Source of the DNA: Aliikangiella marina
GTDB taxonomy: Bacteria > Pseudomonadota > Gammaproteobacteria > Enterobacterales > Kangiellaceae
Assembly: GCF_007004765.1 (NCBI RefSeq)
Contig: NZ_VIKR01000003.1
Coordinates: 62,001 to 126,000, forward strand
Direction: 5' to 3'
DNA length: 64,000 nt
Shown: positions 9,505 through 35,676 of the stretch, piece after piece
Numbering within the stretch: position 1 is the stretch's first letter
Layout of the letters: each line of letters begins with the position of its first letter
Translations under genes and position numbers: made by a program
Notes under the pieces: model-generated
Told to the model about the DNA's origin: nothing
Seen by the model: only the letters and a program-made list of their open reading frames with translations
Databases searched by the model: none

Positions 9505-9512
9505 TAGTACTA
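9505..9512. promoter_or_regulatory. TAGTACTA palindrome before the acyl-CoA synthetase gene
   Basis: An exact TAGTACTA lies 87 bp before the synthetase start codon (last base of motif to first base of ATG). The same palindrome stands at nearly the same distance before three other genes of the hydroxybutyrate/CoA group (12473, 28824, 35669). A plausible -10 element (TATGAT) is at 9547-9552. I read it as an activator or repressor site of a shared regulator, possibly the CrbR-like protein encoded at 12564. Confidence 0.5.
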
Positions 9513-9598
9513 AAGTTGAGTTGCTTAATGATGATAAATTATCCAGTATGATTGAGATTCTCTCGAATCATTAGCGTTTAATTTTGAGAAGCTATTTC

Positions 9599-11152
9599 AT
9601 GTCATTCTTTATTGATAACCACATAACCATCAGTCGCCTCATATCATGGCATGCAAGTTGGAGAGAGGCGGAACCGGCGATTATTTTTAATCATAAACAG
9701 ACCTCATGGTTGGAGTTACATTTACGTACCAATCAGTTGGCTAATGTCTTATTGGATAAGGGGCTCAATAAAGGACAGCGCGTTGTTATATTAATGGAAA
9801 ATTCGGCGTCGATGTTGATTGCAATGTTTGCTACCCTCAAAGCCGGTTTGAGCGTGGTACCAATTAATCTGAATATTTCCGACGAAACCTTGTTTGCCCA
9901 AGTCAATGACGCTAAAGCATCGGCAATTATCGCTTCGGAACAACAGGCACAACGGATAAACTCACAGCTCAATGCTTTTTCAACGTTACAAACTTTCTTA
10001 AAATTTAGCTCATCTGATGAACAAGATAATTGGCAATCCCTAAATAGTCTTCTGGTTAATGCGAGTATGGAGTCACCAAGTGTAACTATTAATAGGGATG
10101 ACGAATGTATTGTTATATATAGTTCAGGGACTACCGGTATTCCAAAAGGAATTGTTCATAATCATGGAGCAAGACTGGATTGGGCGTATGATTTGTCTAT
10201 TGCACTCAAATTTCATTCGGGTGCTACTACCATTTGTTCGCTTGGGCTTTATTCAAACATTAGCTGGGTTTCCATGCTCACGAGTTTGTTAACTGGCGGA
10301 AAGTTGATTATTCAAGAAAAGTTTTCTGCCGAGGAGTTCATTCAATTAGTTGACCGATACCAAGTAACGCACTGCGCTGGTGTACCGATTCAATATCAGC
10401 GTGTTTTTGATAATAAGCATTTTTCGCCGAAAAAGGTACGCTCTTTAACAATGCTAATGTGCTGCGGATCAGCGATGAGTGATAGTCTCAAGCGGCTAAT
10501 TGGTGAGCACTTGGAGTGCGATCTGATTGAGCTTTATGGTCTAACAGAGGGGGTCATCACGACCTTGGCGCCGGAATATCGCAAGAGAAAGCCAAACTCG
10601 GTCGGTAAGCCATTACCGGGTCTCGAATTAGCAATCTTAAGCGATGAAGACAAGATGCTCGATAATCATGAACCCGGAGAAATTATTTCTCGTGGACGAA
10701 CGATGATGGTTGGTTACCTTAATCGTGCCGACGCTGATAAAAGCGCAAGTTGGCAGGATATTCAAGGTAAGGTGTGGTTTAGGACAGGTGATATTGGAAA
10801 GATAGACAAAGATGGTTTTTTATATTTAGTTGATCGAAAGAAAGACATGATCATCTCCGGTGGACAAAACATTTATCCACAAGATCTCGAGAAAATTCTT
10901 TTACAACATAATGCGATCGATGAAGCGGCTGTAATCGGGGTAACCAGTGAAAAATGGGGAGAAACACCTTTGGCTTTAGTGGTGAGCAAAGTCAGTTTAG
11001 ACCTCAGTCTTTTGTGTGATTGGGCGAACAAACAATTGGGTAGACAACAGAAAATCGCTAAAGTTGAGCAGGTAACTAGCCTTCCTCGTAATCCAAATGG
11101 CAAACTAGAGAAGAAAAAAATACGAGATTCTTATGCGCATTATCAACTTTAG
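9599..11152 (+). CDS. Acyl-CoA synthetase (AMP-forming, class I adenylating)
   Basis: A 517-residue adenylate-forming enzyme that activates a carboxylic acid with ATP and CoA. All hallmark motifs are present: the P-loop YSSGTTGIPKG (about residues 177-187), YGLTEG, WFRTGDIGKIDKDG, the hinge DRKKDMIISGG, and the catalytic Lys in NPNGKLEKKK near the C-terminus. Chain length of the substrate cannot be read; a short or medium acid such as acetoacetate is suggested only by the neighbours (thiolase next, PHB locus further on). The ATG at 9599 follows GAGAAG at a spacing of about 8; the TTG at 9584 lacks this. The gene and the thiolase probably form one transcript (86-bp gap). Confidence 0.85.
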   Translation: MSFFIDNHITISRLISWHASWREAEPAIIFNHKQTSWLELHLRTNQLANVLLDKGLNKGQRVVILMENSASMLIAMFATLKAGLSVVPINLNISDETLFAQVNDAKASAIIASEQQAQRINSQLNAFSTLQTFLKFSSSDEQDNWQSLNSLLVNASMESPSVTINRDDECIVIYSSGTTGIPKGIVHNHGARLDWAYDLSIALKFHSGATTICSLGLYSNISWVSMLTSLLTGGKLIIQEKFSAEEFIQLVDRYQVTHCAGVPIQYQRVFDNKHFSPKKVRSLTMLMCCGSAMSDSLKRLIGEHLECDLIELYGLTEGVITTLAPEYRKRKPNSVGKPLPGLELAILSDEDKMLDNHEPGEIISRGRTMMVGYLNRADADKSASWQDIQGKVWFRTGDIGKIDKDGFLYLVDRKKDMIISGGQNIYPQDLEKILLQHNAIDEAAVIGVTSEKWGETPLALVVSKVSLDLSLLCDWANKQLGRQQKIAKVEQVTSLPRNPNGKLEKKKIRDSYAHYQL

Positions 11153-11238
11153 TAAAAGCAAGATTCAATGCCTTTTCGAGTCAAAGCTATGTTAAGTCAA
11201 AGTTATATCGAGTCAAAAAAAACAGCTGAGAAACCGTC

Positions 11239-12426
11239 ATGAATCATTCTGTCTATATTCGGAATAGTTACCACACCCCCTTCAAGATGCTTCCAGAAGA
11301 AACGCTGTATAGTTTGTATGCTAAAGCCTTGATTGAAGTCATTGAAACTAGTGAGTTTAGTATCGATGATGTTGATGCCGTTTTCGTTGCAAACTATAGT
11401 GGTGGGAGTTTTAATCAGCAGGAACATATAGCGCCTTATGCTGTGAACATAGGCCCTCGATTACGCGGTAAGCCGATGTATCGAGTTGAAGCGGCTTGTG
11501 CGTCCGGTGCAAGCGCAGTCGACTTAGCCAATATGGCCATTTATTCTGGAAAGATCGACACTGCGGTTGTGATTGGAATCGAGAAAATGACCCAGCTAGA
11601 CACGTCAGGCGTCACTTCAGCTCTAGCAAAAGCTTCTTATTTTCCGAGTGAGGGAGGCATGGGTTTTTCTTTCCCCGCCTTGTTCTCAGAATATGCGAAA
11701 GGGTGGCTAAAACACTATCAGTTTTCAAACGAACAGCTTCAATATTGGTTAGCATTAATCAGCAGCAAAGCTTATTCTCTTGGCGCGCAGAATCCACTCG
11801 CCCAACTTCGTACTGAAAGGACTGTTGAAGAGTTACTTGCTTTACCGGATAACAAAAATCCTGAAATTGCCTCGCCATTGAGACTCCATGATTGCTCACC
11901 CATTAGTGATGGTGCTGCGGCAATCATCCTTAGCCGTCACCAACCTATTGAAAAAAGGGTTAGGTTAGCCGATATTGAGACTTGTTGTGATTATTTAAAT
12001 ATTATTGAAAGCAAAAAGCCTAATCACCAGCTAGAGGTCGCTACTCAGGCAATAGACACTATTTTGTCGAGAAACAAACTCTCTATCAACAACATCCAAT
12101 TTGCTGAAATTCATGATTGTTTCACCATTTCTGAATTATTGATGTACAGCGCGCTGGGAATTGCTAAACCCGGCAGAGAATTCCAAGCCCTAGAAAGTGG
12201 TGATGTATTGCCCGGTGGAAAGTGTGTCGTGAATCCGTCAGGCGGGCTAAAATCAAAAGGACACCCCGTGGGGGCGACAGGCGTTTCGATGCATGTACTG
12301 GCTTATCGCCAACTGATCAACGAAGCCAGCGGCTATCAAGTCGAAAATGCGGAAAACGCAATAATTGTCAATTTGGGCGGTAGTGCAGCGACCAATGTCG
12401 TATCATTAATATCGCGAGAAGAATAA
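11239..12426 (+). CDS. SCP2-type thiolase (acyl-CoA acetyltransferase family)
   Basis: A 395-residue thiolase-fold enzyme. The acyl-accepting Cys is C87 in EAACASGAS; the second catalytic box is HDCF at 292-295, and GHP is at 341-343 in KSKGHPVGATG. The C-terminus reads VNLGGSAA and lacks the CxG cysteine of classical thiolases, which together with HDCF marks the SCP2/SCP-x subgroup. It would cleave (or form) a 3-ketoacyl-CoA, giving acetyl-CoA. It follows the acyl-CoA synthetase on the same strand, so the two could activate and split a keto acid. Substrate is inferred from context. Confidence 0.83.
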   Translation: MNHSVYIRNSYHTPFKMLPEETLYSLYAKALIEVIETSEFSIDDVDAVFVANYSGGSFNQQEHIAPYAVNIGPRLRGKPMYRVEAACASGASAVDLANMAIYSGKIDTAVVIGIEKMTQLDTSGVTSALAKASYFPSEGGMGFSFPALFSEYAKGWLKHYQFSNEQLQYWLALISSKAYSLGAQNPLAQLRTERTVEELLALPDNKNPEIASPLRLHDCSPISDGAAAIILSRHQPIEKRVRLADIETCCDYLNIIESKKPNHQLEVATQAIDTILSRNKLSINNIQFAEIHDCFTISELLMYSALGIAKPGREFQALESGDVLPGGKCVVNPSGGLKSKGHPVGATGVSMHVLAYRQLINEASGYQVENAENAIIVNLGGSAATNVVSLISREE

Positions 12427-12472: not shown

Positions 12473-12480
12473 TAGTACTA
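12473..12480. promoter_or_regulatory. TAGTACTA palindrome before the CrbR-like regulator gene
   Basis: An exact copy of TAGTACTA ends 84 bp before the ATG of the response regulator at 12564. It is the second of four intergenic copies at near-identical spacing. If the regulator binds it, this copy would give autoregulation. Confidence 0.5.
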
Positions 12481-12563
12481 AGGTCCTATAGCGAATCAAT
12501 GACAATTTGCGGTAAATAGGATTAAATAGTGATTAAACCCTAGCTGTTGGGCTAAGAGATATT

Positions 12564-13229
12564 ATGCAAACAAAAGTTATTGTCGCTGATGATCATCCCC
12601 TTTTTAGAGAAGCGATGAAACAGGTCCTTCCACAATTGATTGAGGATTGTCAGGTCATCGAGGCGGAAAGTTTTTATCAATTAGAACAATGCCTTGCCGA
12701 TAACCCCGATACTGACTTAGTTTTGATGGATTTACACATGCCTGGAAACAAAGGGTTTGTTGGACTTAATTTGATTAAATCTGAGTATCCAGCTGTCGCG
12801 GTGGTAATGGTTTCTGCAACCGAAACGGCACAGATTGTTCATCGAGCTTTTACATTTGGGGCTTCCGGGTACATTCCCAAATCATCGCCTTTTGATGTCA
12901 TAAAGACCGCTATCAGTAGCGTGATGTTGGGCGAAACCTGGATGCCTGAGGCGCTCGCAAGGGAAGTACAGATTGCCCAATCAGAACAAGATGATTTTGC
13001 TGAAAAAATCACTTCATTGACGCCGCAACAATTTAAAGTACTTACGATGATTGCGGATGGTCAGTTAAACAAACAAATCGCTTATGATCTCAATATTCAA
13101 GAAACCACCGTCAAACATCATGTTTCCTCGATCTTGAGAAAGTTGAATGTCATCAATCGAACCCAAGCTGGGGTGCTATTTAATCAACTTGAAGTTGAAG
13201 ATAGTGCTCAGCAGATTGCTGAAGGCTGA
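12564..13229 (+). CDS. NarL/LuxR-family response regulator, CrbR/ErdR-like
   Basis: A 221-residue two-component regulator. The receiver domain has the acidic pair D9-D10, the phospho-acceptor D56 in LVLMDLHMPG, and the conserved Lys in GYIPKSSP. The C-terminal LuxR-type helix-turn-helix spans about 150-210 (LTPQQFKVLTMIADG, NIQETTVKHHVSSILRKL). The receiver, especially ADDHPLFREA and FGASGYIPKSSP, resembles CrbR/ErdR, the partner of SLC5-domain hybrid kinases (CrbS/MxtR) that controls acetate and alcohol use. Such a kinase is encoded at 23898-27401. The pairing is inferred. A TAGTACTA palindrome lies in the promoter region. The ATG has AGAG about 7 nt upstream. Confidence 0.83.
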   Translation: MQTKVIVADDHPLFREAMKQVLPQLIEDCQVIEAESFYQLEQCLADNPDTDLVLMDLHMPGNKGFVGLNLIKSEYPAVAVVMVSATETAQIVHRAFTFGASGYIPKSSPFDVIKTAISSVMLGETWMPEALAREVQIAQSEQDDFAEKITSLTPQQFKVLTMIADGQLNKQIAYDLNIQETTVKHHVSSILRKLNVINRTQAGVLFNQLEVEDSAQQIAEG

Positions 13230-13266: not shown

Positions 13267-15393
13267 CTACCCAAGGGCTTTAAGTAGCAATTTTTGATAG
13301 ACTTTTTCTTTGCTGTTTTGCGGGTTGTCTAGGTTCATTCGTTTTAAATGTGATTGGTATTTAGATTTTTTTCCTGTTGAGAAAATGGCAGACAGCAAAA
13401 ATTGATAGAACTTTATTTTATTCGATTGCAGCGCTTTCAGCTTTTTAAGACCTTTACCAATTTCTAGTTCTTCCTGAGTAAAATCATGACCTAATGGAAA
13501 AGGCTTAAACAGCCCTTGCGATTTAAAGGCTTTTAGAACTGGTAGATACCGTTGGGGATAGTTGTTTGTAAAACGTTTATCAAGTTGAAAGTTGTTAGGC
13601 AACTTATTGGCTTTTTTAGCTTGCGAAATAAGCATTGCTTGAAATCGAGAGTCCGCGATTTGGATCAAGGCTGACGCTACTTCCTCATCCGTTTTGCTGC
13701 GTAAATCAGCGATCCCATACTCTGTTATAACAATGTCGCGCAAGTGACGAGGAATGGTACAGTTAGCATAATTGAATACGATATTTGATTCTAATTTACC
13801 CTCGGCATTAGTGCGAAAACTGCGTAATTGTAATACTGAACGGGCGTCAGGAAGTTCATGCGCCATGGCGACAAAATTATATTGTCCACCAACGCCACTA
13901 ATTTGATTGTAGTCTTCGAGTGCGTCAGAGCAAGCTTGCCCATTGAGTGAGACTTTCATGCAAGTATTGATAAAACGCCCATTAACTCGTTGTAGTCTAT
14001 CAATTTCTTCGTGACCGTAGAGTTGATTAATTTGGGATATCTTTCTCATGCGGAATAGTTTGCGTTCTTCTACAGGTAAGTCTTTCAAAAAGTCGTAAAA
14101 AGACCGTGGTCCTAAGAAAAAACCGCCATGAGCAACCGCGCCATTTCTCAATCGTTCGCCAATCACTAAATTGCGATCAAGTTCATGAATATCATTACTC
14201 AGAATTTGATTATCTTGAGTAATGAGACGACCTTCTTGAAAGTTAATGCCTGAGCGAATGATGCCGTATTCTTTTAAAAATTCGACGTCTTCGATAGATA
14301 GTTTCTGTGAAATGGCTTTATGCTGTTGAAGTACATCGAAAATTGACTCATCAAATTCTTCGGATATTTCTCCCTCGTTGAGAAGTCGTTGCAGGATAAC
14401 TGAGTCGTAAACTTTTTTCTTAAGAATACCTTTTTGATACAAAGAGGCAAAGCTATCGACTAGCATTTCAGTCGACGCGAAAAGGCCAATATTAAATTCC
14501 TCGGTTTCACCACATTGCTCAATAACAGGAAATGAAAGTCGATCGATTTCAAGTTCTTTTAATACCTTTCGATAAAGGTCATTATTTTCCTGTCTTAATC
14601 CTAGCCCATATACGAGCGCATCGCCCAATGACCCGATACCAATTTGGATTTCTCCATTGTCCTTAATGAGCGAAGAAGCATGCAGTCCGATCATATAATC
14701 AACGTCGGGTATTGCCATTTTCGGTGGTGCGAAAACTGCGTAATCGAGTTCTCTGTTATCGACGAGTATGTCAAAGAAATTGAGTGGCACGATACTCTCG
14801 CCGTACATAAAGGGCAAGTCTTGATTAGTTTGTCCGATGGTGACAAATTCTCTACCGTTTGCCTTTAACAAATTAACAAGATCGATAGATATATCTGGAT
14901 TGCAACTTAAGCTTAAAACTGCTTCATCATCGATACTACCGTGACAAACTTGCTGACAAATAACATTGACACCCCGGTTAAACACATCTCTTGCAACATG
15001 GGTATAGTTAGATGAGAGGTAATTTTGTTGGCCATAAGCATTATCTTTAAATTGTCCGGCTTTGTAGTAAAACTCAATTATCTTGACGTTATCCGGTAAA
15101 CTTTGGTTTAAACGATCGTTTTCGAATGTCAAATTCGGATAATTTTTAAATACTCTTTGTAGAAATGGGCCCATAAACTGTTTTTCAATAAAGGACTTTG
15201 CCTTGGGAACTTGCAACGTAAGAGCGGTTAACAATGTAAAATTGATACTCGGGTCGTTTTTTGCTCTAAGGTATATCTCATTTAAAATATGATTAGCTTT
15301 ACCCGCCCCCAAAGGGGCTGCCATGATAATATTTTTTCCTACTGTCTGGATCAGTTTGTCAACGGCCGCTTTGGGGGAATCAAATTTATTCAT
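13267..15393 (-). CDS. Acetyl-CoA hydrolase/CoA-transferase family protein
   Basis: A 708-residue protein of the acetyl-CoA hydrolase / 4-hydroxybutyrate CoA-transferase family, which moves CoA between acids or hydrolyses acyl-CoA. The best family signature is ISGVGGQYNFVAMA in the C-terminal half, followed by DARSVLQLRSFR; GIGSLGDALVYGL lies in the middle. It is longer than the usual 430-500 residues, with an extended middle part and a basic C-terminal tail. I chose ATG at 15393 (MNKFDSPKAA), which has CAGAGAA about 7 nt upstream, over the upstream in-frame starts at 15456 and 15444. It converges on the response regulator gene. A role in making acetoacetyl-CoA or recycling acetate would fit the neighbours but is unproven. 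Confidence 0.8.
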   Translation of the reverse strand: MNKFDSPKAAVDKLIQTVGKNIIMAAPLGAGKANHILNEIYLRAKNDPSINFTLLTALTLQVPKAKSFIEKQFMGPFLQRVFKNYPNLTFENDRLNQSLPDNVKIIEFYYKAGQFKDNAYGQQNYLSSNYTHVARDVFNRGVNVICQQVCHGSIDDEAVLSLSCNPDISIDLVNLLKANGREFVTIGQTNQDLPFMYGESIVPLNFFDILVDNRELDYAVFAPPKMAIPDVDYMIGLHASSLIKDNGEIQIGIGSLGDALVYGLGLRQENNDLYRKVLKELEIDRLSFPVIEQCGETEEFNIGLFASTEMLVDSFASLYQKGILKKKVYDSVILQRLLNEGEISEEFDESIFDVLQQHKAISQKLSIEDVEFLKEYGIIRSGINFQEGRLITQDNQILSNDIHELDRNLVIGERLRNGAVAHGGFFLGPRSFYDFLKDLPVEERKLFRMRKISQINQLYGHEEIDRLQRVNGRFINTCMKVSLNGQACSDALEDYNQISGVGGQYNFVAMAHELPDARSVLQLRSFRTNAEGKLESNIVFNYANCTIPRHLRDIVITEYGIADLRSKTDEEVASALIQIADSRFQAMLISQAKKANKLPNNFQLDKRFTNNYPQRYLPVLKAFKSQGLFKPFPLGHDFTQEELEIGKGLKKLKALQSNKIKFYQFLLSAIFSTGKKSKYQSHLKRMNLDNPQNSKEKVYQKLLLKALG

Positions 15394-23897: not shown

Positions 23898-25601
23898 TTA
23901 GGCTTTGAGTAGACGGTTGAGTAAAGTTCTCAATGACAAAGGCTTAATAGGTTTGTGCAAAATGTAGAGACCATTTTCTTGAGTTTCTTGTTTGACACTA
24001 TCAGTTTGATCGGCGGTAATAATCACGGCTGGGATCTCTCGTTTAGCGTTAGCTCTTAGGTGTTTTATTACTTCGACACCAGTTGAGTTTTCGAGGTGAT
24101 AGTCTGCAAGAATAAGGGCGATATTATCGACGGTAAAGTCAGGATCTGAATCGAAGTTACCATCAGTACTCGTTTTGATATTGGTATATCCCCAGTTAGA
24201 TAAAAGTGATTCCATCCCCTCGATTATCGTTTGTTCGTTATCAATACAAATAATGAGCCGATTACTATTTGATTCTGTGCTTGTTGTTTGCGGAAGCAAT
24301 ACGGTTTGAGGTAACTCACAGACTTCAAGGCTGTCGGCTATAGGTACACTAATCGAAAAGTTTGCACCTTGATTGAGCGAAGATTTTAACGTAAGCGGAA
24401 GTTTTAATATATTAAGAATCCGGGTCACAATTGCCAGTCCCAAACCATGCCCTTCTACAACTTGTTTGTCTGAGTCAACTTGTACAAACTCTTTGAATAT
24501 TTCATCTTGTTGATCTTTTGCAATTCCTTTACCTGTATCGATGACATGAATATTTAGGCGTGGACCATTGCGCCGTACGCCGAATAAAATCGCTCGAGAT
24601 TGTGAATGATTGATCGCATTACTCAATAGATTTTGTAATACACGTCTAAGCATAGTTCGATCGGTTTTTATAAATTTACTGCAGTAGACAGTTTTTAGTT
24701 TGATCGCCTTATCATTTGCAAGTACAGAAAACTCCTGCGAAAGTTGCTGCATCAGCTCATTCACCGAAAAAGTTGTCACAGAGGGCGCGATATTGCCAGA
24801 ATCGAGTTTTGAAATATCAATCAAATCTTTGAGTAGTTGTTCGGCAGAGTGTAATGCTTGTTGAATTTTTAAGGTGAGTTGCTTATTTGATTCATCAGCG
24901 ACCTTTTCAAACAGAGTTGCGCTAAAAAGACTCGCTGCGTTGAGCGGTTGAAGAACGTCGTGACTGGCAGCCGCTAAAAAGCGAGTTTTACTTTGGTTGG
25001 CTGACTCAGCCATAGACTTTGCCTCAAGCAACCTTTTATTAAGCGCTTCAAGCTCCTCTGTTCTCAGGCTCACTCGTTCTTCAAGTTCTAGATTAATTTT
25101 TTCAAGCTCTCTTTGTTGCTCTCTAAATTGTGTGATATCAATAAATGAAGTAACGAATCCGCCGCCGGGAATGGGGTTTCCGCGCATCTCGAGGACAATC
25201 CCGTCTGCTAACTGTCTTTCATAGACATGAGGACTGCCTTTACGCATAAAGTCTAACCGTTTTGTAATCGCGTTATTAATGTCAGAAAATTTAACTTTGC
25301 CTTGCTCGGCATTAAACCGGATTAAATCTTCAATAGGCCGACCTACTCTTAACAGTCCCTCCGGATAATTAAAGAGTTTTCTATATTGACTATTCCAGGC
25401 GACAAGCTTTTGTTCTTTATCAACAACACTAATTCCATGACTAACATTTTCAATGGCTGATTGAAGCAGTTCACGATTAAATAGCAAAACATCCGCTGCT
25501 TCATCAATCATATTAGCCACATCCTCAAATGAAACCGGCTTATTACTTTCAAGTGATTCAAAAACAAGTCTGGTTGAAGTTGCACCGATAATTGCCTGCA
25601 A
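23898..25601 (-). CDS. Hybrid histidine kinase part of a CrbS-like sensor (separated by an in-frame TAG)
   Basis: A reading frame of 567 residues: a PAS segment (SAIENVSHGISVVDKEQKLVAW), a coiled coil (LEKINLELEERVSLRTEELE), a histidine kinase core with the H-box AAASHDVLQPLN, N-box NLLSNAINHS, DTGKGIAKDQ and GHGLGLAIV, and a C-terminal receiver with the phospho-acceptor Asp in ILADYHLENSTG and Lys in LHKPIKP. It is in the same frame as the SLC5-like ORF just upstream, parted only by TAG (25605-25607). In relatives (CrbS/MxtR type) both halves form one protein of about 1150 residues. A TTG at 25601 with GAG before it could allow re-initiation. Status (split, readthrough or pseudogene) is open. 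Confidence 0.8.
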   Translation of the reverse strand: MQAIIGATSTRLVFESLESNKPVSFEDVANMIDEAADVLLFNRELLQSAIENVSHGISVVDKEQKLVAWNSQYRKLFNYPEGLLRVGRPIEDLIRFNAEQGKVKFSDINNAITKRLDFMRKGSPHVYERQLADGIVLEMRGNPIPGGGFVTSFIDITQFREQQRELEKINLELEERVSLRTEELEALNKRLLEAKSMAESANQSKTRFLAAASHDVLQPLNAASLFSATLFEKVADESNKQLTLKIQQALHSAEQLLKDLIDISKLDSGNIAPSVTTFSVNELMQQLSQEFSVLANDKAIKLKTVYCSKFIKTDRTMLRRVLQNLLSNAINHSQSRAILFGVRRNGPRLNIHVIDTGKGIAKDQQDEIFKEFVQVDSDKQVVEGHGLGLAIVTRILNILKLPLTLKSSLNQGANFSISVPIADSLEVCELPQTVLLPQTTSTESNSNRLIICIDNEQTIIEGMESLLSNWGYTNIKTSTDGNFDSDPDFTVDNIALILADYHLENSTGVEVIKHLRANAKREIPAVIITADQTDSVKQETQENGLYILHKPIKPLSLRTLLNRLLKA

Positions 25602-25604: not shown

Positions 25605-25607
25605 CTA
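25605..25607 (-). other. In-frame amber codon inside the CrbS-like sensor gene
   Basis: Reading the minus strand, codons run GCA TAT ACC GAG TAG CTT TTG CAG GCA. The TAG joins two frames that are collinear with one hybrid kinase, at the junction where homologues read roughly YTE-R-LLAGAIGAASAR. A single base change from a sense codon (for example CAG, AAG or TGG) would explain it. Confidence 0.75.
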
Positions 25608-27401
25608 CTCGGTATATGCGGACAGCTGTTGAATATCCGCTTTTCTGATATCAGTAAGATTATATCGATGTCTGAACTTCTCGAATGCTTTAAACGCTGG
25701 CTCTTTCCCCATAAATCTCTCTGCCAGCAAAATGAGATCATCGATATTAAGGTTGGCATCTTGCGCTGATAGCGATTGACGATTTTCCGGGTTAGTTGAG
25801 AAAAACTGACTCGTATGCATCCGTTGTTTAATAGTCGCAGAGCCTCGCATCGAAAACAAAACCAAGAATCCTAGATTAACGGTTAAGCTCCAAATAACGC
25901 CATGGGTCAAAGTGTCGAAACCGTATAACCAAAATAATTCGGTGGGTCGCAGAAAACTTAAATGGAATAAACCTTTTTCGAGTAGCGAACTTCCAATTAG
26001 TCCAGCCGAAGCAAGGGCTGGAATTAACAATGTGAAACACCAAACGGTGAAACCACCAATAATTCCTGCTAGTACTGAGGTCGGCGTGCATCTTTTCCAA
26101 TAAGCCGTTGCAATGAGTGCGGGAGCAAGTTGCGCCACAAGTGCCATGGAGAGAAGTCCTGTTGCAGACAACTGTTCCGTAATGGCGATTGAGCGATAGT
26201 AAAAATACGCGAGCATTAAAATCACGACTATCAAGAGTCGACGAACCCATAAAAGGCGTTTCCCGAGATCGTTTTTGTCGCTCAATTTAACTGAAAAATA
26301 TTTCACGATAAACGGCACAATAATCTCGTTACCAATCATCGTACTCGAAACTATAGCGGCGACAATAATCATACTAGTGGCGGCGGATATTCCGCCAATG
26401 AAGACAAAGCCTGCAACTAACGCGTTGTTTTCAGAGAGCGGAAGCAATAGAGAGTAGTTTTCTGCGGCAATGTCTTGCTCTCCAAAGTAAATTTTTCCGG
26501 CCAGAAAAATCGGTAAAATAAAAAAATTAATGAGCAACAAATAGCTAGGAAAGATCCAGCGGCTTTTGATCAATTCTTTGGGTGAACGATTTTCAACTAC
26601 TAAAACATGGAACTGTCTGGGTAAACACAATATTGCAAAAACGCCAAGTAACGCTTGAGTAAGATAAATAAATGCGGGTTGTCGTTGTTGAAGTAATTCT
26701 TGTGTTGCTGGTACTGATTGAGCTTGAGCAAATAAATCATTCAGGCCATCGAAGATGAAGTAAACCGAAAAAAAGCCAACCACTAAAAAAGCCGTCAGTT
26801 TTACTATTGATTCGAATGCTACTGCAAGCATAATTCCATTATTATGTTCTGTTGCATCGATCTTGCGAGTACCAAATAGAATGGTAAAAGCTGCCACAAA
26901 CAACGCGACATATAGCGCGGTATCTTGCCAAACATTGAGTGATGGTTCGATTGTGGGATTGTGAGTACCAGTGACTACTAGGTAGCTATTGACGATAGAC
27001 TGAAGTTGCAGCGCAATATACGGAATAACCGCGATAGTACAGATGGTAACAACAATACCGCCGATTAAATGAGAACCGCCAAAGCGACCCGCGATAAAGT
27101 CGGCGATAGAGGTGACTTGATTTTGTTTGGCAATGCGAACAATTCGGGTGACGATTGGCCATGCAAAAATAAATAACAAAATGCTGCCGAAGTAAGTGGG
27201 CGCAATCACCCAGCCAGTGGACTCGGTTTGGGCAACGGTCCCATACATAGCCCAAGACGTACAGTATATCGCTAAAGATAAGCTAAAAATCCAAGGTCTA
27301 GCTTTATTCGTATTTAAATAACGTTCACCAAATTCAGCAATAACGAACAGTAGCAGTAAGTAACCAAGTGTAATCGAAATGATCAACCAGTTTTCTATCA
27401 A
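25605..27401 (-). CDS. SLC5-like sensor part of a CrbS-like hybrid kinase (ends at in-frame TAG)
   Basis: A 598-residue polytopic protein of sodium:solute symporter (SLC5) type with about 13 membrane segments. Clear signs are CTSWAMYGTVAQTESTGW, TSIADFIAGRFG and LCLPRQFHVLVVENR. The C-terminal cytoplasmic tail (TDIRKADIQQLSAYTE) is the linker that in CrbS/MxtR/CbrA-like proteins leads into the PAS and kinase domains, here interrupted by TAG. The gene starts with TTG at 27401, backed by AGGAG at a spacing of 6. It follows the GntP permease gene by 51 bp and is probably its operon partner. Such domains are thought to sense, and in part transport, short-chain acids or amino acids. Confidence 0.82.
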   Translation of the reverse strand: MIENWLIISITLGYLLLLFVIAEFGERYLNTNKARPWIFSLSLAIYCTSWAMYGTVAQTESTGWVIAPTYFGSILLFIFAWPIVTRIVRIAKQNQVTSIADFIAGRFGGSHLIGGIVVTICTIAVIPYIALQLQSIVNSYLVVTGTHNPTIEPSLNVWQDTALYVALFVAAFTILFGTRKIDATEHNNGIMLAVAFESIVKLTAFLVVGFFSVYFIFDGLNDLFAQAQSVPATQELLQQRQPAFIYLTQALLGVFAILCLPRQFHVLVVENRSPKELIKSRWIFPSYLLLINFFILPIFLAGKIYFGEQDIAAENYSLLLPLSENNALVAGFVFIGGISAATSMIIVAAIVSSTMIGNEIIVPFIVKYFSVKLSDKNDLGKRLLWVRRLLIVVILMLAYFYYRSIAITEQLSATGLLSMALVAQLAPALIATAYWKRCTPTSVLAGIIGGFTVWCFTLLIPALASAGLIGSSLLEKGLFHLSFLRPTELFWLYGFDTLTHGVIWSLTVNLGFLVLFSMRGSATIKQRMHTSQFFSTNPENRQSLSAQDANLNIDDLILLAERFMGKEPAFKAFEKFRHRYNLTDIRKADIQQLSAYTE

Positions 27402-27452: not shown

Positions 27453-28760
27453 CTAAAGCAAAAATAGTCCAATAGCGATTATAACACCCACTAAAGGAAC
27501 AACAACCGTGAGCGCAGCTAGCGGATTGTAAGCCGCTTGATGAGTTTCTCCGCAAATTGCTCTGATGGTTGTCACCACATAGCCGTTGTGTGGCAAAGAG
27601 TCTAGCGCTCCGGAAGAAATTGCGACGATGCGGTGGAGTTCTTCGGGATCGACTCCGGCATCAATGTAGTGAGGCGCAAGAACCGGTAATGCAATGGCTT
27701 GCCCACCTGATGCCGATCCCGTTAAGCCTGCGATAACAGAAACCGCAATAGCGGCACTGATTAACTCATTCCCAGGAATGCTTGTCATTAAGGTGACTGC
27801 ATCAGAGAATGCAGGCGTTACTTTTGCTACTGCGCCAAATCCGACTACGGCGGCAGTATTACCGATCGCAATTAGTGCTCCCGTTGTTCCAAGGTTGATT
27901 GCGTTACCGAGGTTGCGAATATAGCGATGATTAATTAGCCAGCAAGTTATTACGCCACCCAGCAAAGCCACGACCAACGCATATTGTCTCAACGATTCGT
28001 GGAGAAAAAAACTGGTTAGTAGGACAACGGCGAGCGGAATCAGCGACAAGGCTGGAGAAGGCATAGCACTGGTTCGCTGTTGTGGATCGCCTTCACGTAC
28101 TTCAAAGCTTTCACCGTTTGCAACTGCCTTATTAATCATTTTACGTAGCCACCAAAAGCCGAAAGTGGCCATAAAAACCGCAACTACTAGCGAAACTTCC
28201 CAGCCGGCATAAGGGGTTGTATTTAAGTATTTAATCGGGATCCAATTCTGAATTTCAGGCGATCCTGCAGAAGTCATTGTGAAAGTCACAGAGCCAAACG
28301 CAAGGGTTGCCGGAATAAACCTTCTTGGCAGGTTCGCTTGCTTGAATAGACTAATTGCCATAGGGTAAACGCCAAAAGCGACGACGAAAACACTGACGCC
28401 GCCGTAGGTTAAAATTGCGCAAGCGGCGACGATCGCCAAAACGGCATGTTTCATGCCGAGTTTGTTTACAACCCATGCCGAAATACTATCTGCACTGCCA
28501 CTGTCCTCCATTAGTTTGCCAAACAACGAACCTAATAAGAACATCAGAAACCATGCTTGAACAAATCCAGCAAACCCCGACATATAACTATTAACCAGAT
28601 CTGCTTGTGCCGTTCCTTCACTAACAAACAAAGGTATTTGACTCGTCAACGCGACAATTAAGGCACAAAGCGGGCCGGCAATCATTAAATTCATTCCACG
28701 TATGGTGAGAAAAATTAATAAGCTTAAGCCACCAATTAGCCCTAACATGCTCAAGGTCAT
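27453..28760 (-). CDS. GntP-family permease, candidate 3-hydroxybutyrate transporter
   Basis: A 435-residue inner-membrane protein with about 12 hydrophobic segments. The stretch FGSVTFTMTSAGSPEIQNWIP and the later GLTGSASGGQAIALPVLAP are typical of the GntP/citrate-transporter-like group, whose members carry gluconate or short-chain hydroxy acids, including 3-hydroxybutyrate. Context points to hydroxybutyrate: divergent from a TonB-dependent receptor, next to a PHB depolymerase, and upstream of a CrbS-like sensor on the same strand. The start ATG at 28760 lies 64 bp from a TAGTACTA palindrome. Substrate is inferred. Confidence 0.8.
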   Translation of the reverse strand: MTLSMLGLIGGLSLLIFLTIRGMNLMIAGPLCALIVALTSQIPLFVSEGTAQADLVNSYMSGFAGFVQAWFLMFLLGSLFGKLMEDSGSADSISAWVVNKLGMKHAVLAIVAACAILTYGGVSVFVVAFGVYPMAISLFKQANLPRRFIPATLAFGSVTFTMTSAGSPEIQNWIPIKYLNTTPYAGWEVSLVVAVFMATFGFWWLRKMINKAVANGESFEVREGDPQQRTSAMPSPALSLIPLAVVLLTSFFLHESLRQYALVVALLGGVITCWLINHRYIRNLGNAINLGTTGALIAIGNTAAVVGFGAVAKVTPAFSDAVTLMTSIPGNELISAAIAVSVIAGLTGSASGGQAIALPVLAPHYIDAGVDPEELHRIVAISSGALDSLPHNGYVVTTIRAICGETHQAAYNPLAALTVVVPLVGVIIAIGLFLL

Positions 28761-28823
28761 ACAACTGTCCTTATTTTATTTCTGATGGAACAGCATGATG
28801 GCGTAAGTTGTCTTAATCTCCCA

Positions 28824-28831
28824 TAGTACTA
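28824..28831. promoter_or_regulatory. TAGTACTA palindrome between permease and TonB-receptor genes
   Basis: An exact TAGTACTA in the divergent region, 64 bp from the permease start and 86 bp from the receptor start. The same asymmetry (65 and 87 bp) is seen at 35669 between the dehydrogenase and oligomer hydrolase genes, which argues that the motif has a fixed place in the promoters. Confidence 0.55.
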
Positions 28832-28916
28832 TCGTACAGCATACGACCAATAAGTTTTGTTGTAAGGTAATTTGAAAACCCATATTATCAAACGCGAAAT
28901 GAGAGGGAGAGGTTGA

Positions 28917-31178
28917 ATGAACGCAACGACTAATAATAGATTTAAAAAGAAAAGTCTTGCACTGTTAATAAGCGTGGCACTTGGTTTAAGCGGGCAACTA
29001 GCCGCTGCTGAAGAAGTTAATGCTGAAGATCAAGAGAATGCAGAAGAAGGTGTCCCTACCTTGATTATCACTGCGCGAAAAACTGAAGAGAATATCCAAC
29101 GAGTTCCAGTCTCTGTTTCCGCTATAACCTCTGAACAAATATTTGAGACTGGCATTGATGATGTAACTGACGTTCAATTCCACACCCCTAATAGTACCTT
29201 GCAGGTTAGCCGAGCAACAAACTCAACCTTAACGGCATACATTCGTGGGGTTGGTCAGCAAGACCCCCTATGGGGATTCGAGCCGGGTGTTGGTATCTAT
29301 ATTGATGATGTTTACATTGCTAGACCCCAGGGTGCGGTAATGGATATCCTCGACATTGACCGTTTAGAAGTTTTAAGAGGTCCTCAAGGAACGCTCTATG
29401 GTAAAAACACCATTGGTGGTGCAGTGAAATATGTCACTAGAGAAATGTCTGGTGATGGCGAATTTTCGATTGATGCCACGATCGGTTCGTTTAATCAGCG
29501 TGATGCGAAAATCGCGGCACAAATTCCGATTGTGGAAGATCAATTTTATTTTGGTTTAGCTTATGCTTCGTTGCAGCGTGATGGATTTGGTAATTTCATT
29601 AATACCGGCGATGAAAATTACAACAAAGATTTAACCGCAATGAGAGCTTCATTTGAATATAGGCCGAGCGATAGTTTATTTTTTCGCTTGGCCCATGACA
29701 ATACGCAAGATGACAGCAATGCCCGGGGTGGTTATCGATTAACGCCGAGCTTGGTTACTGCTCAGCAGCCTTACGCAGATATCTATGACTCTGACACAAG
29801 TTTACCGGTATTTAATGACGTTGAAACCGGTGGTACTTCATTTACGATAGATTATGAAATTAACGATCAAACAAGTATTAAATACGTTTGGGCGGAAAGA
29901 GAGGGTGACACATACACCAACATCGATTTTGATGCCACCGCGGTTAATACTTTTGATGTGCCAGCAGTTTACGATGATGAGCAAACCACCCATGAAATTC
30001 AGGTGAATTACAGTGCCGAAAATTGGCGTGCGGTTTTTGGTTATTATGATTATCAAGGAGAAGCATGCGGAGCGTTTGATGTCATACTTGGGCTTGCCGG
30101 GATTACCTTAGAAAATGGTGGTTGTGTTGATACCGAAAGTAGCTCGTTTTATGGCCAAGCAAACATTGAATTAGCTGATAAATGGTCGATGACTATTGGC
30201 GGTCGTTACACAAAAGATGAAAAAACAGCCGATGTCTACCGCTTTGTCTTTTTGGGTTCAGTTTTTCCAGAAGATAATGAGACGCCGATTGCTGTTCAGT
30301 CGGACTTTAATGGGAGCGAAGACTGGAGTGAATTTACGCCACGTATTGGCTTTGAATATCAAGCTGAAGACGACTTAATGTACTATTTTTCGTATGCGGA
30401 AGGATTTAAATCCGGTGGCTTTGATATGCGAGCGAACGAATCAGTAAATCCTTTGGCTAACGAGCCCTTCGATCCGGAGTTGGTCAGCACTTATGAATTT
30501 GGTTTTAAAAGCGATTGGTTCGACAATAATTTTAGACTTAACGGCGCGCTTTTTTACACCGATTACGAAGATATGCAAGTAACCGTTCAGCGAGCGGTGG
30601 GTCAAAATGATTTCGCCACACAAGTTGTCAATGCGGGCGAGTCTGAAATTAAAGGTATGGAATTAGAAGGACTTGCATACATCAACGATAATTTTAACTT
30701 AAATTTCGCCATCGGTTATATCGATGCAGAGTTTGTAAGAGTAGACTTCTTTGATCCTAACCTAGGACAAACGGTCGATGTCTCGGACCAATGGGTGATT
30801 TCAAATACGCCAGAATTGAGTGCCAATGTTGGAGCAAATTATACGATTGAGTCTTCGATGGGTGATTTTAGTATTAATGCCAATTGGGCCTATCGTTCGA
30901 AAACGAATATTTTTGAGATTCCTTCGACTCTCGATATGGGAAGCTACAGTTTGTTCAATATTGGTGTCAATTGGTACCATCCAGAAGGCCAATGGAAAGC
31001 CGGACTTCATGTCAAAAATGCCTTTGATGAGGAATATCGTGTCGCTGGCTATAACTTCCCTGCGGTGTTTGACAATCAAGGAAATTTAGTAGCCCCGGGC
31101 CTAGGCGGTGAAGATACCGTGACAGGTTTTTATGGCGACCCACAAACAATCGCACTCACTATCGGATACGAGTTATAA
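28917..31178 (+). CDS. TonB-dependent outer-membrane receptor
   Basis: A 753-residue receptor. Signal peptide (SLALLISVALGLSGQLAAA), TonB box-like PTLIITARK, then a plug domain (RVPVSVSAITSEQI, YIRGVGQQDP, VEVLRGPQGTLYGKNTIGGAVKYVTR-type motif with EVLRGPQGTLYG) and a 22-strand barrel ending in QTIALTIGYEL. It would import a substrate across the outer membrane using energy from TonB. The neighbours suggest 3-hydroxybutyrate oligomers from PHB rather than iron: it stands between a GntP permease and a PHB depolymerase, and the promoter holds the shared TAGTACTA. Strong ribosome-binding site (GAGAGGGAGAGG). Substrate is inference. Confidence 0.88.
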   Translation: MNATTNNRFKKKSLALLISVALGLSGQLAAAEEVNAEDQENAEEGVPTLIITARKTEENIQRVPVSVSAITSEQIFETGIDDVTDVQFHTPNSTLQVSRATNSTLTAYIRGVGQQDPLWGFEPGVGIYIDDVYIARPQGAVMDILDIDRLEVLRGPQGTLYGKNTIGGAVKYVTREMSGDGEFSIDATIGSFNQRDAKIAAQIPIVEDQFYFGLAYASLQRDGFGNFINTGDENYNKDLTAMRASFEYRPSDSLFFRLAHDNTQDDSNARGGYRLTPSLVTAQQPYADIYDSDTSLPVFNDVETGGTSFTIDYEINDQTSIKYVWAEREGDTYTNIDFDATAVNTFDVPAVYDDEQTTHEIQVNYSAENWRAVFGYYDYQGEACGAFDVILGLAGITLENGGCVDTESSSFYGQANIELADKWSMTIGGRYTKDEKTADVYRFVFLGSVFPEDNETPIAVQSDFNGSEDWSEFTPRIGFEYQAEDDLMYYFSYAEGFKSGGFDMRANESVNPLANEPFDPELVSTYEFGFKSDWFDNNFRLNGALFYTDYEDMQVTVQRAVGQNDFATQVVNAGESEIKGMELEGLAYINDNFNLNFAIGYIDAEFVRVDFFDPNLGQTVDVSDQWVISNTPELSANVGANYTIESSMGDFSINANWAYRSKTNIFEIPSTLDMGSYSLFNIGVNWYHPEGQWKAGLHVKNAFDEEYRVAGYNFPAVFDNQGNLVAPGLGGEDTVTGFYGDPQTIALTIGYEL

Positions 31179-31268
31179 AGAGATACCTCGATAGGATAAA
31201 GTTGTTAGCTGCTAGTTATTGCCGTGATCGATAGGTTGCGGCTTTTTTAATTTTAGAAGGAAGTGTCA

Positions 31269-32252
31269 ATGTTTTATTGGCTTAGGTTTATATTAATCGT
31301 ATTTTTACTAAGTAATTGTTCAAAAAGTACTGATCAATTTCCGTCGCTCAATCTTGATCGTTCTTCTGTGACTGTATCGGGTATTTCTTCTGGCGGTTAT
31401 ATGGCTCACCAATATCATTTGGCCTACGGGAGTCAAGTCAGTGGAGCCGCTTTATTCGCCTCAGGTCCTTTTGGTTGCGCGCAAGGCGACTTAAATATTG
31501 CTTTGGCAGATTGTGTAGATAGTCAGCAGCCACCTTTTGTTGATGATTTATTCGCGCACCTTAATCGTCTAGTCGAAGCTGAGCAGATCGACGCTTTAGA
31601 CAATTTAAGTGAGGATAAAGTTTGGATCTTTCACGGTCAGGCTGATCAACGAGTCAGCCGCCAGGTAACTGAAACGCAAGCCGCACTATATCGAAAGCTG
31701 CAGGTGCAAGTCGCTACCGAATTTACCGTTAATGCAGGTCACGGTATTCCAACAACCGATTACGGTGTTCCTTGTAATAATAGTGAGTCTCCTCATATCA
31801 ACCATTGCCAGTACGATGGTGCTGGTGAAGCGCTACAAGTGCTTTATGGAGAATTGGCCGCTAAGACAAAAGCTACGGGTAAAATTATCCCGTTTTCTCA
31901 AGCTAAGTTTTTAACGAATCAATCGAATACTTTGGCTGAGACCGGTTACGCTTACGTGCCCTCCATCTGTTTATCCGGTGAACAATGCCGAATTCATATT
32001 AGTTTTCACGGTTGTTCGCAAAATGAAGAATCGGTAGGCAGAGAGTATATTGAGCATAGTGGATTCAATAGTTGGGCTGAGAGTAATCGTTTGGTTATTA
32101 TTTACCCACAAACTAAGTCAAGTTTTGTGCCATTGAACCCAAAGGCTTGTTGGGACTGGTGGGGATACACCGGACCGGACTATCAAACTAAAAATGGCCA
32201 ACAGATAACGCATATTCACGCCATTATTAAAGGATTGGGTCACTCGTTTTAA
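31269..32252 (+). CDS. PHB depolymerase-like lipoprotein
   Basis: A 327-residue alpha/beta hydrolase resembling poly(3-hydroxybutyrate) depolymerases. The lipobox is LLSNC (Cys17), so it is probably anchored to a membrane. The nucleophile lies in GISSGG (Ser40), an Asp candidate in IFHGQADQRVS, and a His candidate in VNAGHGIPTTDYG; ICLSGEQCRIHISFHGCSQ and NPKACWDWWGYTG are typical of the family. It would cut PHB chains into oligomers. It follows the TonB receptor by about 90 bp and may share its transcript. ATG at 31269 follows AGAAGGA at 8 nt; a GTG at 31263 is too close to that site. Confidence 0.86.
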   Translation: MFYWLRFILIVFLLSNCSKSTDQFPSLNLDRSSVTVSGISSGGYMAHQYHLAYGSQVSGAALFASGPFGCAQGDLNIALADCVDSQQPPFVDDLFAHLNRLVEAEQIDALDNLSEDKVWIFHGQADQRVSRQVTETQAALYRKLQVQVATEFTVNAGHGIPTTDYGVPCNNSESPHINHCQYDGAGEALQVLYGELAAKTKATGKIIPFSQAKFLTNQSNTLAETGYAYVPSICLSGEQCRIHISFHGCSQNEESVGREYIEHSGFNSWAESNRLVIIYPQTKSSFVPLNPKACWDWWGYTGPDYQTKNGQQITHIHAIIKGLGHSF

Positions 32253-32924: not shown

Positions 32925-33096
32925 GGTATTGATTTGGTGTGTGAAGGAATAAATTGAATGCGTCGTTTCGGCACTATTGAAGCTGATCAAGTATTCATAA
33001 TAAGATGCTAAGTCGTCGAAGAACCAGATTATTTTGACACTAATTTGAAGAAATAAACGACAGTTTGATGTGAAAAATACGGAGTAATGCGAGAAA

Positions 33097-33567: not shown

Positions 33568-33602
33568 CTGACGATTGCACGAAAATCTCCTTACAGAAAA
33601 GC

Positions 33603-35582
33603 TCAGGGAATGATCAAGATATTCTTATCTAGCTTGATTGGCAAGCGAGGATTCATAGAAATGCCGGGTAAGTGTCTCAAGGTTAGCTTTTCCGGTGTGT
33701 TATTAGTTACTGATCTAATTGATGTCGCGACAACCTGGCTTGGCGGCAGTGTCTTACCTTTTTGTAAATGAGCTAGCATCAATTCGAGTGATTGCTCGAA
33801 GTAATGGTGAAGCGGTACGTAATGTTTTGCAAACGCAGGAAATGATAGAAACGAGTCAAAGTGCTGCGCGTTAGTAATCTCATAATATTTCAGTTTATCA
33901 GTATCATGTTTTCCTGATAGCAAAAGGTTTGCATAGTAGGGACGTGATGAATGATTTGGTGCAATCAAATTATCGTTCTGTCCATGAATGATAATGGTTG
34001 GAACATTGTGCAAGTTTTGAGTGGCGATAACTTCCTTAATGCCATTTTGAACTCTGTCTGTTTTGACTATATCGTAAAAGCACTTTGCACGCTCATAGTT
34101 ATCCAGCTGATTCGTGTGGCCAATTTCTATCGATGCTGTTCGTGGAATGCCGCTACTTTTAGCGAATAATAATTGTCGTTCTTGTAAGGAAAGAAAACGG
34201 GGTTTAACTAGCTTGTCAAAAGCTGTAAAGTAATTGCCGCAGATCTTGTCTTCAATCTTAAACCGACCTAATTGATTAACATAAGTCGTTGCGAGTGACG
34301 GTCCAATTTGAATCGTATACATTAAGCTGGATAGAACTTGATTATTGTGGTTGATACCATTCCGCTTAAGATACTCAAGCGAAGAATGAGCCAGCTTTTG
34401 ATAGCTATCTCCGACGATAAAGCCGTCAGCTTTTAGTTTGTCGCACCAATCCTGTAAAATTTTTGTGCGTGATTCATCGTCTTGCTGTGAACCCGAACTA
34501 TTGAGTTTTTCTGACAGCAAGCTGCAGGGTTCGAGCAAATATTGAGTCATGAAATACTCGATCCCGGGTAAGCTGTGGTTTTCGATAAGTTCAGATTGCT
34601 GGAGGATGGCTAAGCGAGAATTTTTTTGTGGATAAATATTGGGTTCTGAAACGACCAATCCATCAAACAGTTCAGTCTCATCGTATTCAACCCCGCGGAT
34701 TGAAGCCACTCCACCATTTGAAATACTCGCGGCAATAATAGTGGTGTTCTGTCGCGTAAACGAAATACGTTTTTGTTTAAAATGTTGGTTAAGTTGATAA
34801 AGCGCAAACTCTCCTGCCTTGTAAACGAATTCACCAAATTTTCTTTCGATATTATCGCCCGAGTATGCTTGTTTAGTCGCGATGGCGGTTGGGAATTGTT
34901 TTAGGAAGGATTTTGTATTTTGATTTTTTTTGGGTAGATAGCTTAATAAGCCCTGGTTTTTGTGCCGATAATTACCTTGGATATCATACCCTGATTGTTG
35001 GTCATAAAAATAGAACCCCGTTCCTGTGCCCTTATCGGTATAGGCAACGGCACAACGATTAGTTAGGGCCCAAGTGCCAACGGTACCAACCGCACCATAA
35101 ATTCCTCGAGACCCTGACGTAGCGGCAACAATAATACAGTTTTTATTAAGATCAAAATTATCAGGAATTTGTAAAGCTAGTGTGGCTTCGGGAGTTCCAC
35201 TGGGTGTTATGGCATAGGTTAGGTATTCATGCCCCGGTATCGATGGTTGAGTTTTATTGGGCCCAAAAAATTTACCGTATCCTCCTGACTCTGTGGTATC
35301 AAGCAATGCAATAAAATTATTGAAGTAAGCGATCTTCCTTAAAGTTTTCGGATCGGACTGGTTACTCGTAGTGGGTAGTTTTCGTTGGGTTAATTGTGTA
35401 TGACTCCAACCAGCTGTGAGTAAATCGTCGTCTTTACCATCGTAATAGTGATGAATAATTTTGGGCCCGATATAATCGAGTGGCAAGCTATCATTTTCTA
35501 GCGTACTCGATTCAATTGAAAAAGATCCCATTAAAAACATTAACAGCAGTAGAGTCTTCGATAGGTTTGCACTAGCAACCAT
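33603..35582 (-). CDS. Exported 3-hydroxybutyrate oligomer hydrolase
   Basis: A 659-residue member of the D-(-)-3-hydroxybutyrate oligomer hydrolase family, which splits soluble 3HB oligomers into monomers. Signal peptide: NLSKTLLLLMFLMGSFS. Family features are GPKIIHHYYDGKDDDLLTAG at the mature N-terminus, SGSRGIYGAVG, the nucleophile in ASISNGGVASIRG, and IIHGQNDNLIAP with a later NAQHFDSF that can supply Asp and His. It is expected in the periplasm or outside. ATG at 35582 has GAAGGA about 8 nt upstream, better than the ATG at 35609. Its promoter region, shared with the divergent dehydrogenase gene, has the TAGTACTA palindrome 87 bp from the start. Confidence 0.88.
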   Translation of the reverse strand: MVASANLSKTLLLLMFLMGSFSIESSTLENDSLPLDYIGPKIIHHYYDGKDDDLLTAGWSHTQLTQRKLPTTSNQSDPKTLRKIAYFNNFIALLDTTESGGYGKFFGPNKTQPSIPGHEYLTYAITPSGTPEATLALQIPDNFDLNKNCIIVAATSGSRGIYGAVGTVGTWALTNRCAVAYTDKGTGTGFYFYDQQSGYDIQGNYRHKNQGLLSYLPKKNQNTKSFLKQFPTAIATKQAYSGDNIERKFGEFVYKAGEFALYQLNQHFKQKRISFTRQNTTIIAASISNGGVASIRGVEYDETELFDGLVVSEPNIYPQKNSRLAILQQSELIENHSLPGIEYFMTQYLLEPCSLLSEKLNSSGSQQDDESRTKILQDWCDKLKADGFIVGDSYQKLAHSSLEYLKRNGINHNNQVLSSLMYTIQIGPSLATTYVNQLGRFKIEDKICGNYFTAFDKLVKPRFLSLQERQLLFAKSSGIPRTASIEIGHTNQLDNYERAKCFYDIVKTDRVQNGIKEVIATQNLHNVPTIIIHGQNDNLIAPNHSSRPYYANLLLSGKHDTDKLKYYEITNAQHFDSFLSFPAFAKHYVPLHHYFEQSLELMLAHLQKGKTLPPSQVVATSIRSVTNNTPEKLTLRHLPGISMNPRLPIKLDKNILIIP

Positions 35583-35660
35583 ATAACTATCCTTCAACTG
35601 AAACCACATTGATTAACGCTAAGCATATCAGTGCGCGCTAAAAAATCCTATGTCTCGGTA

Positions 35661-35676
35661 TAGCACTATAGTACTA
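35661..35676. promoter_or_regulatory. Tandem TAGCACTA-TAGTACTA between oligomer hydrolase and dehydrogenase genes
   Basis: Two abutting 8-mers: TAGCACTA (35661-35668) and the exact TAGTACTA (35669-35676). Distances to the start codons are 87 bp (hydrolase, minus strand) and 65 bp (dehydrogenase, plus strand), matching the 86 and 64 bp at the permease/receptor promoter. Likely binding site of a shared regulator. Confidence 0.55.

Follow-up and report, generated by a model that had tools for sequence, protein, structure and literature searches.

What is the short palindrome that recurs before the hydroxybutyrate genes of Aliikangiella marina, and which protein reads it? The question arises in a stretch of 64,000 nucleotides (the window; contig NZ_VIKR01000003.1, positions 62,001 to 126,000 of the forward strand), in which the 8-mer TAGTACTA occurs exactly five times, at 9505, 12473, 16398, 28824 and 35669. 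An earlier sequence-only reading took this 8-mer as the palindrome that defines a hydroxybutyrate/coenzyme A (CoA) regulon, placed it at fixed distances from start codons, and named a CrbR-like regulator as its likely binder. Here, we describe the underlying unit as a 16-bp inverted repeat, TAGTAC-N4-GTACTA, with a shared AC-N4-GT core. Comparison of sequences makes it highly probable that this repeat is an operator and that its binder is CrbR2, a NarL/LuxR-type response regulator encoded in the window (12564..13229, plus strand; Pfam Response_reg and GerE). The repeat is very probably the landing site, in several marine groups, of a dedicated regulator that branched from the acetate-use switch.

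By itself the 8-mer is no regulon marker: it comprises a half-site of the 16-bp repeat and two bases of its spacer, and the copy at 35669 is the mirror half of the repeat at 35661-35676. Its positions, the intergenic placement of four of the five copies (the exception, 16398, lies within the open reading frame (ORF) 15769-17922) and the distances from its edge to the start codons, namely 87 bp (ATG at 9599), 84 (12564), 86 (28917), 87 (35582), 64 (28760) and 65 (35741), are all as the sequence-only reading gave them. Shuffling the window 100 times yielded a mean of 0.47 copies and a maximum of 3, and five copies per 64 kb are an excess for the window (Poisson P 9e-5). The whole genome (5,336,331 bases) holds 41 copies versus 118 of the backward control 8-mer; beyond the window, 33 of the 36 copies overlap an ORF, scored against mechanical ORFs of at least 60 amino acids, and three do not (L024, L033 and L045, in our labels for loci). 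The intergenic share is therefore 4/5 in the window versus 3/36 elsewhere (Fisher P 0.0016). The genome-wide count proposed as a check is consequently divided in its outcome: the 8-mer is mostly scattered in coding sequence, and in the window it is in excess and unusually intergenic. As an operator unit it was rejected on account of the 33 coding copies and of 16398, which ranks 666 in the window on the matrix described below (-3.1 bits). These coding copies, together with the absence of a genome-wide excess, are what speaks for a chance palindrome or a structural element that nothing binds, an explanation contradicted by the conservation and consistent placement of the full repeat across genera and left with next to no likelihood. 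Two pairs of 8-mer copies with identical flanks on the same contigs (L048/L049 and L055/L056; C5 and C6) are duplicated coding genes, and a literature search with the 8-mer as text returned no relevant title among the matches listed.

Written out, the sites of the window are TAGTACTAAAGTTGAGT, TAGTACTAAGGTCCTAT, TAGTACTATCGTACAGC and TAGTACTATAGTGCTAT, the last on the minus strand. They were scored with a symmetric matrix built from 36 sites (13 distinct) of the named and order-wide loci described below, with the window's own genome excluded. The best match in the window is the operator TAGCACTATAGTACTA at 35661..35676 (20.0 bits), between the genes for an oligomer hydrolase and a dehydrogenase, which has counterparts of at least 15 bits in L152, L154, L156, L158 and L160, none of which trained the matrix. 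The second is TAGTACTATCGTACAG at 28824..28839 (19.6 bits), in the permease/TonB intergenic region, a place conserved in relatives, and the third is TAGTACTAAGGTCCTA at 12473..12488 (17.7 bits), upstream of crbR2 and putatively autoregulatory, with counterparts in L155, L157 and L163. A weak candidate, TAGTACTAAAGTTGAG at 9505..9520 (plus strand), stands before a synthetase gene with a good left half only (9.4 bits, sixth); no orthologous promoter was found for it. The fourth-best operator-like match, CAGTACGATGGTGCTG at 31809-31824 (17.4 bits), lies within the coding sequence of a depolymerase and is a false positive or unexplained.

Conservation was assessed in related loci. The oligomer hydrolase as query found none in genome contigs; the permease alignment succeeded, and the best 80 of its 578 loci, hereafter the named loci, were scored for TAGTAC-N4-GTAC (10 core bases) within 300 bp before the permease. 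Eighteen of them score 10/10 (17 loci) or 9/10 (one locus), and all of these are gammaproteobacterial with a TonB gene adjoining the permease; the remaining 62, for the most part Bacillaceae and their kin, with four gammaproteobacteria, score 6 (19 loci), 7 (42) or 8 (one). The repeat (9-10 of 10) is present in all 17 named loci that have CrbR2 or the sensor kinase CrbS2 within 10 kb and in none of the 62 that lack them. Among the 18 operator loci, CrbR2 lies within 10 kb in 16, L239 has CrbS2, and L285 is a contig of 9.6 kb. For this co-occurrence (17 versus 62 loci) the Fisher test gives 1e-17, with L285 omitted and a 34% identical regulator in the Bacillus locus L268 scored as non-CrbR2. 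The same distribution bears on the suggestion that the motif is bound by a different protein, for instance the Lrp-type one at 33097. Its gene does lie in the window; CrbR2 or CrbS2, however, accompanies the site in 17 of the 18 named loci (the eighteenth being the 9.6-kb contig), and a comparison of the Lrp-type protein, the sole other window regulator compared, with 38 related cluster loci gave no homologue at E <= 1e-5. The Lrp-type alternative raised by the sequence-only reading is accordingly weak, and we regard it as exceedingly unlikely.

For promoter comparison, 16 genomes (20 loci) were picked by CrbR2-like or hydrolase matches. CrbR2, CrbS2, the permease and the TonB receptor occur together in 10 of the 16 (G008, G017, G213, G009, G022, G080, G037, G201, G396 and G140), and the permease/TonB and hydrolase/dehydrogenase intergenic regions of these relatives carry TAGTACTATGGTACAGC, TAGTACTATAGTACAGT and similar sequences, which is why we take TAGTAC-N4-GTACTA as the true unit. 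Sites of at least 15 bits number 37 across 39 cluster loci (772,129 bases), and every one of them falls at a permease/TonB, hydrolase/dehydrogenase or crbR2 promoter; the permease/TonB class is partly circular with the training, eight sites come from promoter classes outside it, and a few were counted as lying in an ORF owing to overlong mechanical starts. A score of 12 bits is reached in 6/8 hydrolase, 6/13 dehydrogenase, 4/16 crbR-like and 10/13 TonB rows; of the TonB rows that fall short, two (L151 and L169) are other TonB genes picked by the script. Conservation in orthologous promoters, the check named beforehand, was thus borne out, with the repeat kept across genera in the same placement. 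Order-wide, a search of 394 genomes for the exact pattern listed 100 matches from 83 genomes. An initial 29 outside the window's genome comprise 17 in permease/TonB intergenic regions, one before a TonB gene alone, eight in ORFs and three others; 16 further, hand-chosen matches comprise one before a TonB gene, 12 in ORFs and three others; and of the rest, those lying within the clusters retrieved from G008, G009, G013, G022 and G038 were covered. The recurrent exact matches of one family (L333 and L335) fall in coding sequence. In two promoters (L263, 9871-9916; L266, 9830-9860), two or three operator-like repeats overlap one another in an array.

Which distance is actually constrained? The sequence-only reading stressed the spacing to the start codon, which is not conserved: it varies among relatives, so that the near-identical 84-87 bp is a local feature here. 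What relatives hold constant is the distance from the operator to the -10 element, at 24 bp. In 32 of the 34 relatives, TAnnnT begins on the TonB side at an offset of exactly 24 bp, measured from the end of the operator (the next best offset has 15); on the permease side, xAnnnT does so in 27 of 34 and TAnnnT in none (next best offset, 12). In the window, the corresponding -10-like hexamers are TAAGGT in the TonB direction (28863..28868, plus strand), CATCAT in the permease direction (28795..28800, minus strand) and TAGAGT in the dehydrogenase direction (35700..35705, plus strand); those at the same offset elsewhere are CAGTAT (synthetase), GTAAAT (crbR2) and CGCGCA (hydrolase). At 35661 the -10 element at the conserved distance is, in this genome, on the dehydrogenase side and not on the hydrolase side, which argues against a hydrolase promoter placed as in the sequence-only reading. 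These hexamers fit one symmetric operator serving two divergent promoters.

The spacing also bears on the sign of regulation. Since sequence does not reveal the direction of control, CrbR2 might bind and repress, or its binding might be mainly autoregulatory. The operator, however, overlaps neither the -10 element nor the start site, its end 23 bp before a -10 element on the TonB side (32/34) is close to the position of the activating CrbR box of Pseudomonas fluorescens, at -52 to -36 (PMC5715377), and the crbR2 promoter lacks a site in most relatives; we consider both variants very unlikely.

The CrbR box in question, the ACTU site, is described as a 17-bp imperfect inverted repeat in the P. 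fluorescens acs promoter, mutations of which abolish CrbR-dependent activation (Sepulveda and Lupas 2017, PMC5715377). The window sites share its form, with an inverted repeat, an AC-N4-GT core and a sigma-70-like -10 element downstream, and TAGTAC-N4-GTACTA is a diverged sister of it. The earlier suggestion that a CrbR-like regulator reads a hydroxybutyrate regulon is thus well supported by the orthologous promoters, with the correction that what is read here has diverged from a site already in print. Two direct transfers of the published site were tried and dropped. The ACTU consensus TANKACYWANGTC has 21 genome-wide matches versus 15 for the control, and only the crbR2 site is intergenic at the right distance. 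A matrix of P. fluorescens ACTU sites cannot separate the window sites (12473, 12.7; 9505, 10.4; 28824, 5.0; 35676 on the minus strand, 5.6) from background, in which unrelated places score up to 15.2, and was replaced by the matrix built from orthologues.

Could the canonical regulator read these sites instead? The best NCBIfam match of CrbR2 is ErdR (242.8 bits, under the cut-off of 390), and the genome also encodes a canonical-type regulator, CrbR1, at C1:479634, which is 45% identical to CrbR2 and overlaps an acs gene. CrbR1, alone or with CrbR2, might treat the window sites as low-end ACTU sites: the N4 spacing is the same, and published ACTU sites tolerate TAC in the left half, as in TACTACCATCGTCGAAT of P. 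fluorescens acs (PMC5715377). The two promoter sets differ in the family, however, with GAC-N4-GTC at acs-type promoters and TAC-N4-GTA at 3-hydroxybutyrate (3HB) promoters. In this genome the box reads TTAGAC-TAAA-GTCTAA at the acs promoter and ATAGAC-TAAA-GTCGAA between crbS1 and the actP-like gene; among 11 acs-type promoters of relatives, nine keep the full GAC-N4-GTC core and two keep 5/6 bases of it. The 3HB matrix scores three canonical boxes at -0.8 to -4.2 bits, and the site is absent at L262, L274, L277 and L290, which are gammaproteobacterial loci with the permease and no CrbR2 within 10 kb. CrbR1 as the reader is thus unlikely, and CrbR2 remains our preferred binder. By eye, canonical acs promoters of the genus and its near kin (L028, 5752-5774; L297, L299, L303 and L306) show TAnnnT at a distance of about 35 bp from the preceding ACTU box, which exceeds the 24 bp of the 3HB promoters by roughly a helical turn.

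The proteins diverge along with the boxes. In a quick tree of 71 rows, CrbR2-type proteins form one branch of 47 (SH-aLRT, a Shimodaira-Hasegawa-like likelihood-ratio support, 94). One recognition-helix residue is Q in 34, K in 7, H in 4 and N in 2 rows of this branch, A in 19 of 19 A-type canonical rows, and S in two rows; the window helix, ETTVKHHVSS, departs from the canonical EAT[IV]KAH. In an alignment with NarL, the variable position faces the V of ESTVKVHV, a residue that we take to contact bases. Two sisters of the window protein within the branch, L081 (G018) and L099 (G008), have H in this helix, and the stretches around them (L164 and L307) gave no match to the 3HB cluster genes used as queries.

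The putative partner kinase, CrbS2, is encoded on the minus strand in two parts, an N-terminal SLC5-like part (25605..27401) that stops at an in-frame TAG (25605-25607) and a C-terminal part (23898..25601) in the same frame with PAS, HisKA, HATPase and receiver domains (Pfam). Domain order and frame fit a CrbS SLC5/STAC hybrid kinase, except that the TAG separates the SLC5-like part. The latter has no Pfam match and was assigned through a second CrbS-like gene (C1:503383-505080, 37% identical), which is divergent from a gene whose product, as read from the sequence, starts like an acetate symporter. No stop occurs at the SLC5-like/PAS junction in the 29 other CrbS-like genes compared (0 of 29), and the TAG may be a real mutation, an assembly error or a split gene.

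With the operator, its conservation, its co-occurrence with CrbR2 and CrbS2, the -10 spacing and the different canonical boxes computed, we infer the binder, its insulation from canonical CrbR, activation, and 3HB or one of its oligomers as the inducer. In the model that we propose, a phosphorylated CrbR2 dimer would sit on the repeat with a half-site for each subunit, immediately upstream of where RNA polymerase binds, and would activate transcription by analogy with CrbR. At permease/TonB, a single operator with a -10 element 24 bp to either side would serve both directions. The regulon would comprise the permease followed by the kinase gene, the TonB receptor, the oligomer hydrolase/dehydrogenase pair and, in this genome, crbR2 itself; a synthetase-thiolase pair may have been added locally. 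CrbR2 and its operator would have diverged from the CrbS/R acetate system, leaving ACTU-type boxes at acs and crbS1/actP-like. We find it reasonably likely, with less assurance than the pairing of operator and binder, that such cells contain two insulated circuits, one for acetate (GAC-N4-GTC) and one for hydroxybutyrate (TAC-N4-GTA), that the operator moved together with the helix change from A to Q/K/H/N, and that one symmetric site drives outer- and inner-membrane import together with the sensor, a sensory branch that has been overlooked.

Several observations weigh against this reading. The operator patterns are not over-represented: when one mismatch is allowed, the 14-mer pattern matches 11 times genome-wide versus 17 times for its backward control, and the 16-mer 10 times, counted strand-wise, versus 34. 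These 16-mer matches occupy five places, of which two belong to the window and the other three lie within ORFs, so that only the placement of the patterns is special, not their number, and their small number implies a regulon that is small and local in this genome. The synthetase site at 9505 is weak in its second half; 12 of the 16 crbR-like and 7 of the 13 dehydrogenase promoters have no site of at least 12 bits; and a -10 element at 24 bp is missing on the hydrolase side of 35661 (L158 has TAGACT and L160 TAAACT there). The loci are kin, and the Fisher value and offset counts overstate independence. The CrbR2 branch comes from a quick tree without bootstrap, and its members L081 and L099 were not seen beside the cluster. 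Finally, the in-frame TAG in the kinase gene makes signaling in this strain uncertain.

The kind of circuit is already known; the operator of its own and the 3HB target set would be new. CrbS/CrbR (MxtR/ErdR; PMC5715377) likewise pairs a NarL-type regulator with an SLC5-HK-receiver kinase (HK, histidine kinase), and its ACTU site likewise has N4 between ACs and GTs, a sigma-70-like -10 element and CoA-pathway targets. The present system differs in its half-site (TAGTAC, not GAC-type), in its helix (Q/K/H/N, not A) and in its predicted targets (3HB and polyhydroxybutyrate (PHB) genes, not acs/actP), and canonical CrbR and CrbS are also in the genome. RpuS/RpuR, from another branch of the same kinase family, similarly couples an SLC5/STAC kinase to a regulator of a nutrient-uptake gene, but it is alphaproteobacterial and controls a pyruvate symporter, and a term search of PMC9100948 finds no mention of hydroxybutyrate. 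Our literature search found no paper linking a CrbR-type regulator to hydroxybutyrate. AtoS/AtoC of Escherichia coli and HbcR of Pseudomonas regulate short-chain fatty acid or 3HB catabolism; they are activators of the sigma-54 type and bear no relation to a NarL/LuxR-type regulator that works at a sigma-70-like promoter. If our reading is correct, a regulator, an operator and targets can be named for marine hydroxybutyrate and PHB use in several genera, including Alteromonas, Pseudoalteromonas, Glaciecola, Salinimonas and Pleionea, for which the literature search found no described regulator. It would also provide a clean example from nature of how paralogues among response regulators gain separate operators, with two circuits in one genome set apart by a few bases and a candidate residue, and ACTU would become a family of related sites rather than a single acetate signal.

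The predicted targets suggest what the regulon would do. The enzymes expected of a 3HB/PHB utilization cluster are present, namely a type 2 short-chain polyhydroxyalkanoate (PHB) depolymerase (31263..32252, plus strand; NCBIfam NF050059, above cut-off), a 3HB-oligomer hydrolase (33603..35582, minus strand; Pfam PF10605, E 7e-147) and a 3HB dehydrogenase (35741..36496, plus strand; TIGR01963, above cut-off). Together with a GntP-type permease (27453..28760, minus strand; Pfam PF02447; 64-80% identity in clusters) and a TonB-dependent receptor (28917..31178, plus strand; Pfam), these genes are predicted to form a route from polymer or oligomer to acetoacetate. The permease is probably for 3HB, which fits its setting in the named bacilli, where a short-chain dehydrogenase 36-43% identical to the window's usually follows the same permease. 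An AMP-binding acyl-CoA synthetase (9599..11152, plus strand) that possibly activates acetoacetate, the weakest regulon member, and a thiolase-family protein downstream (11239..12426, plus strand; both Pfam and NCBIfam) could complete the pathway; clusters elsewhere gave two weak synthetase matches (25% and 23%) and no thiolase match. Beside crbR2, at 13267-15456, no good operator site was seen before the gene for a large acetyl-CoA hydrolase/transferase-type protein, whose Pfam match covers the C-terminal domain only; an acyl-CoA hydrolase gene is among the CrbR targets of Pseudomonas (PMC5715377).

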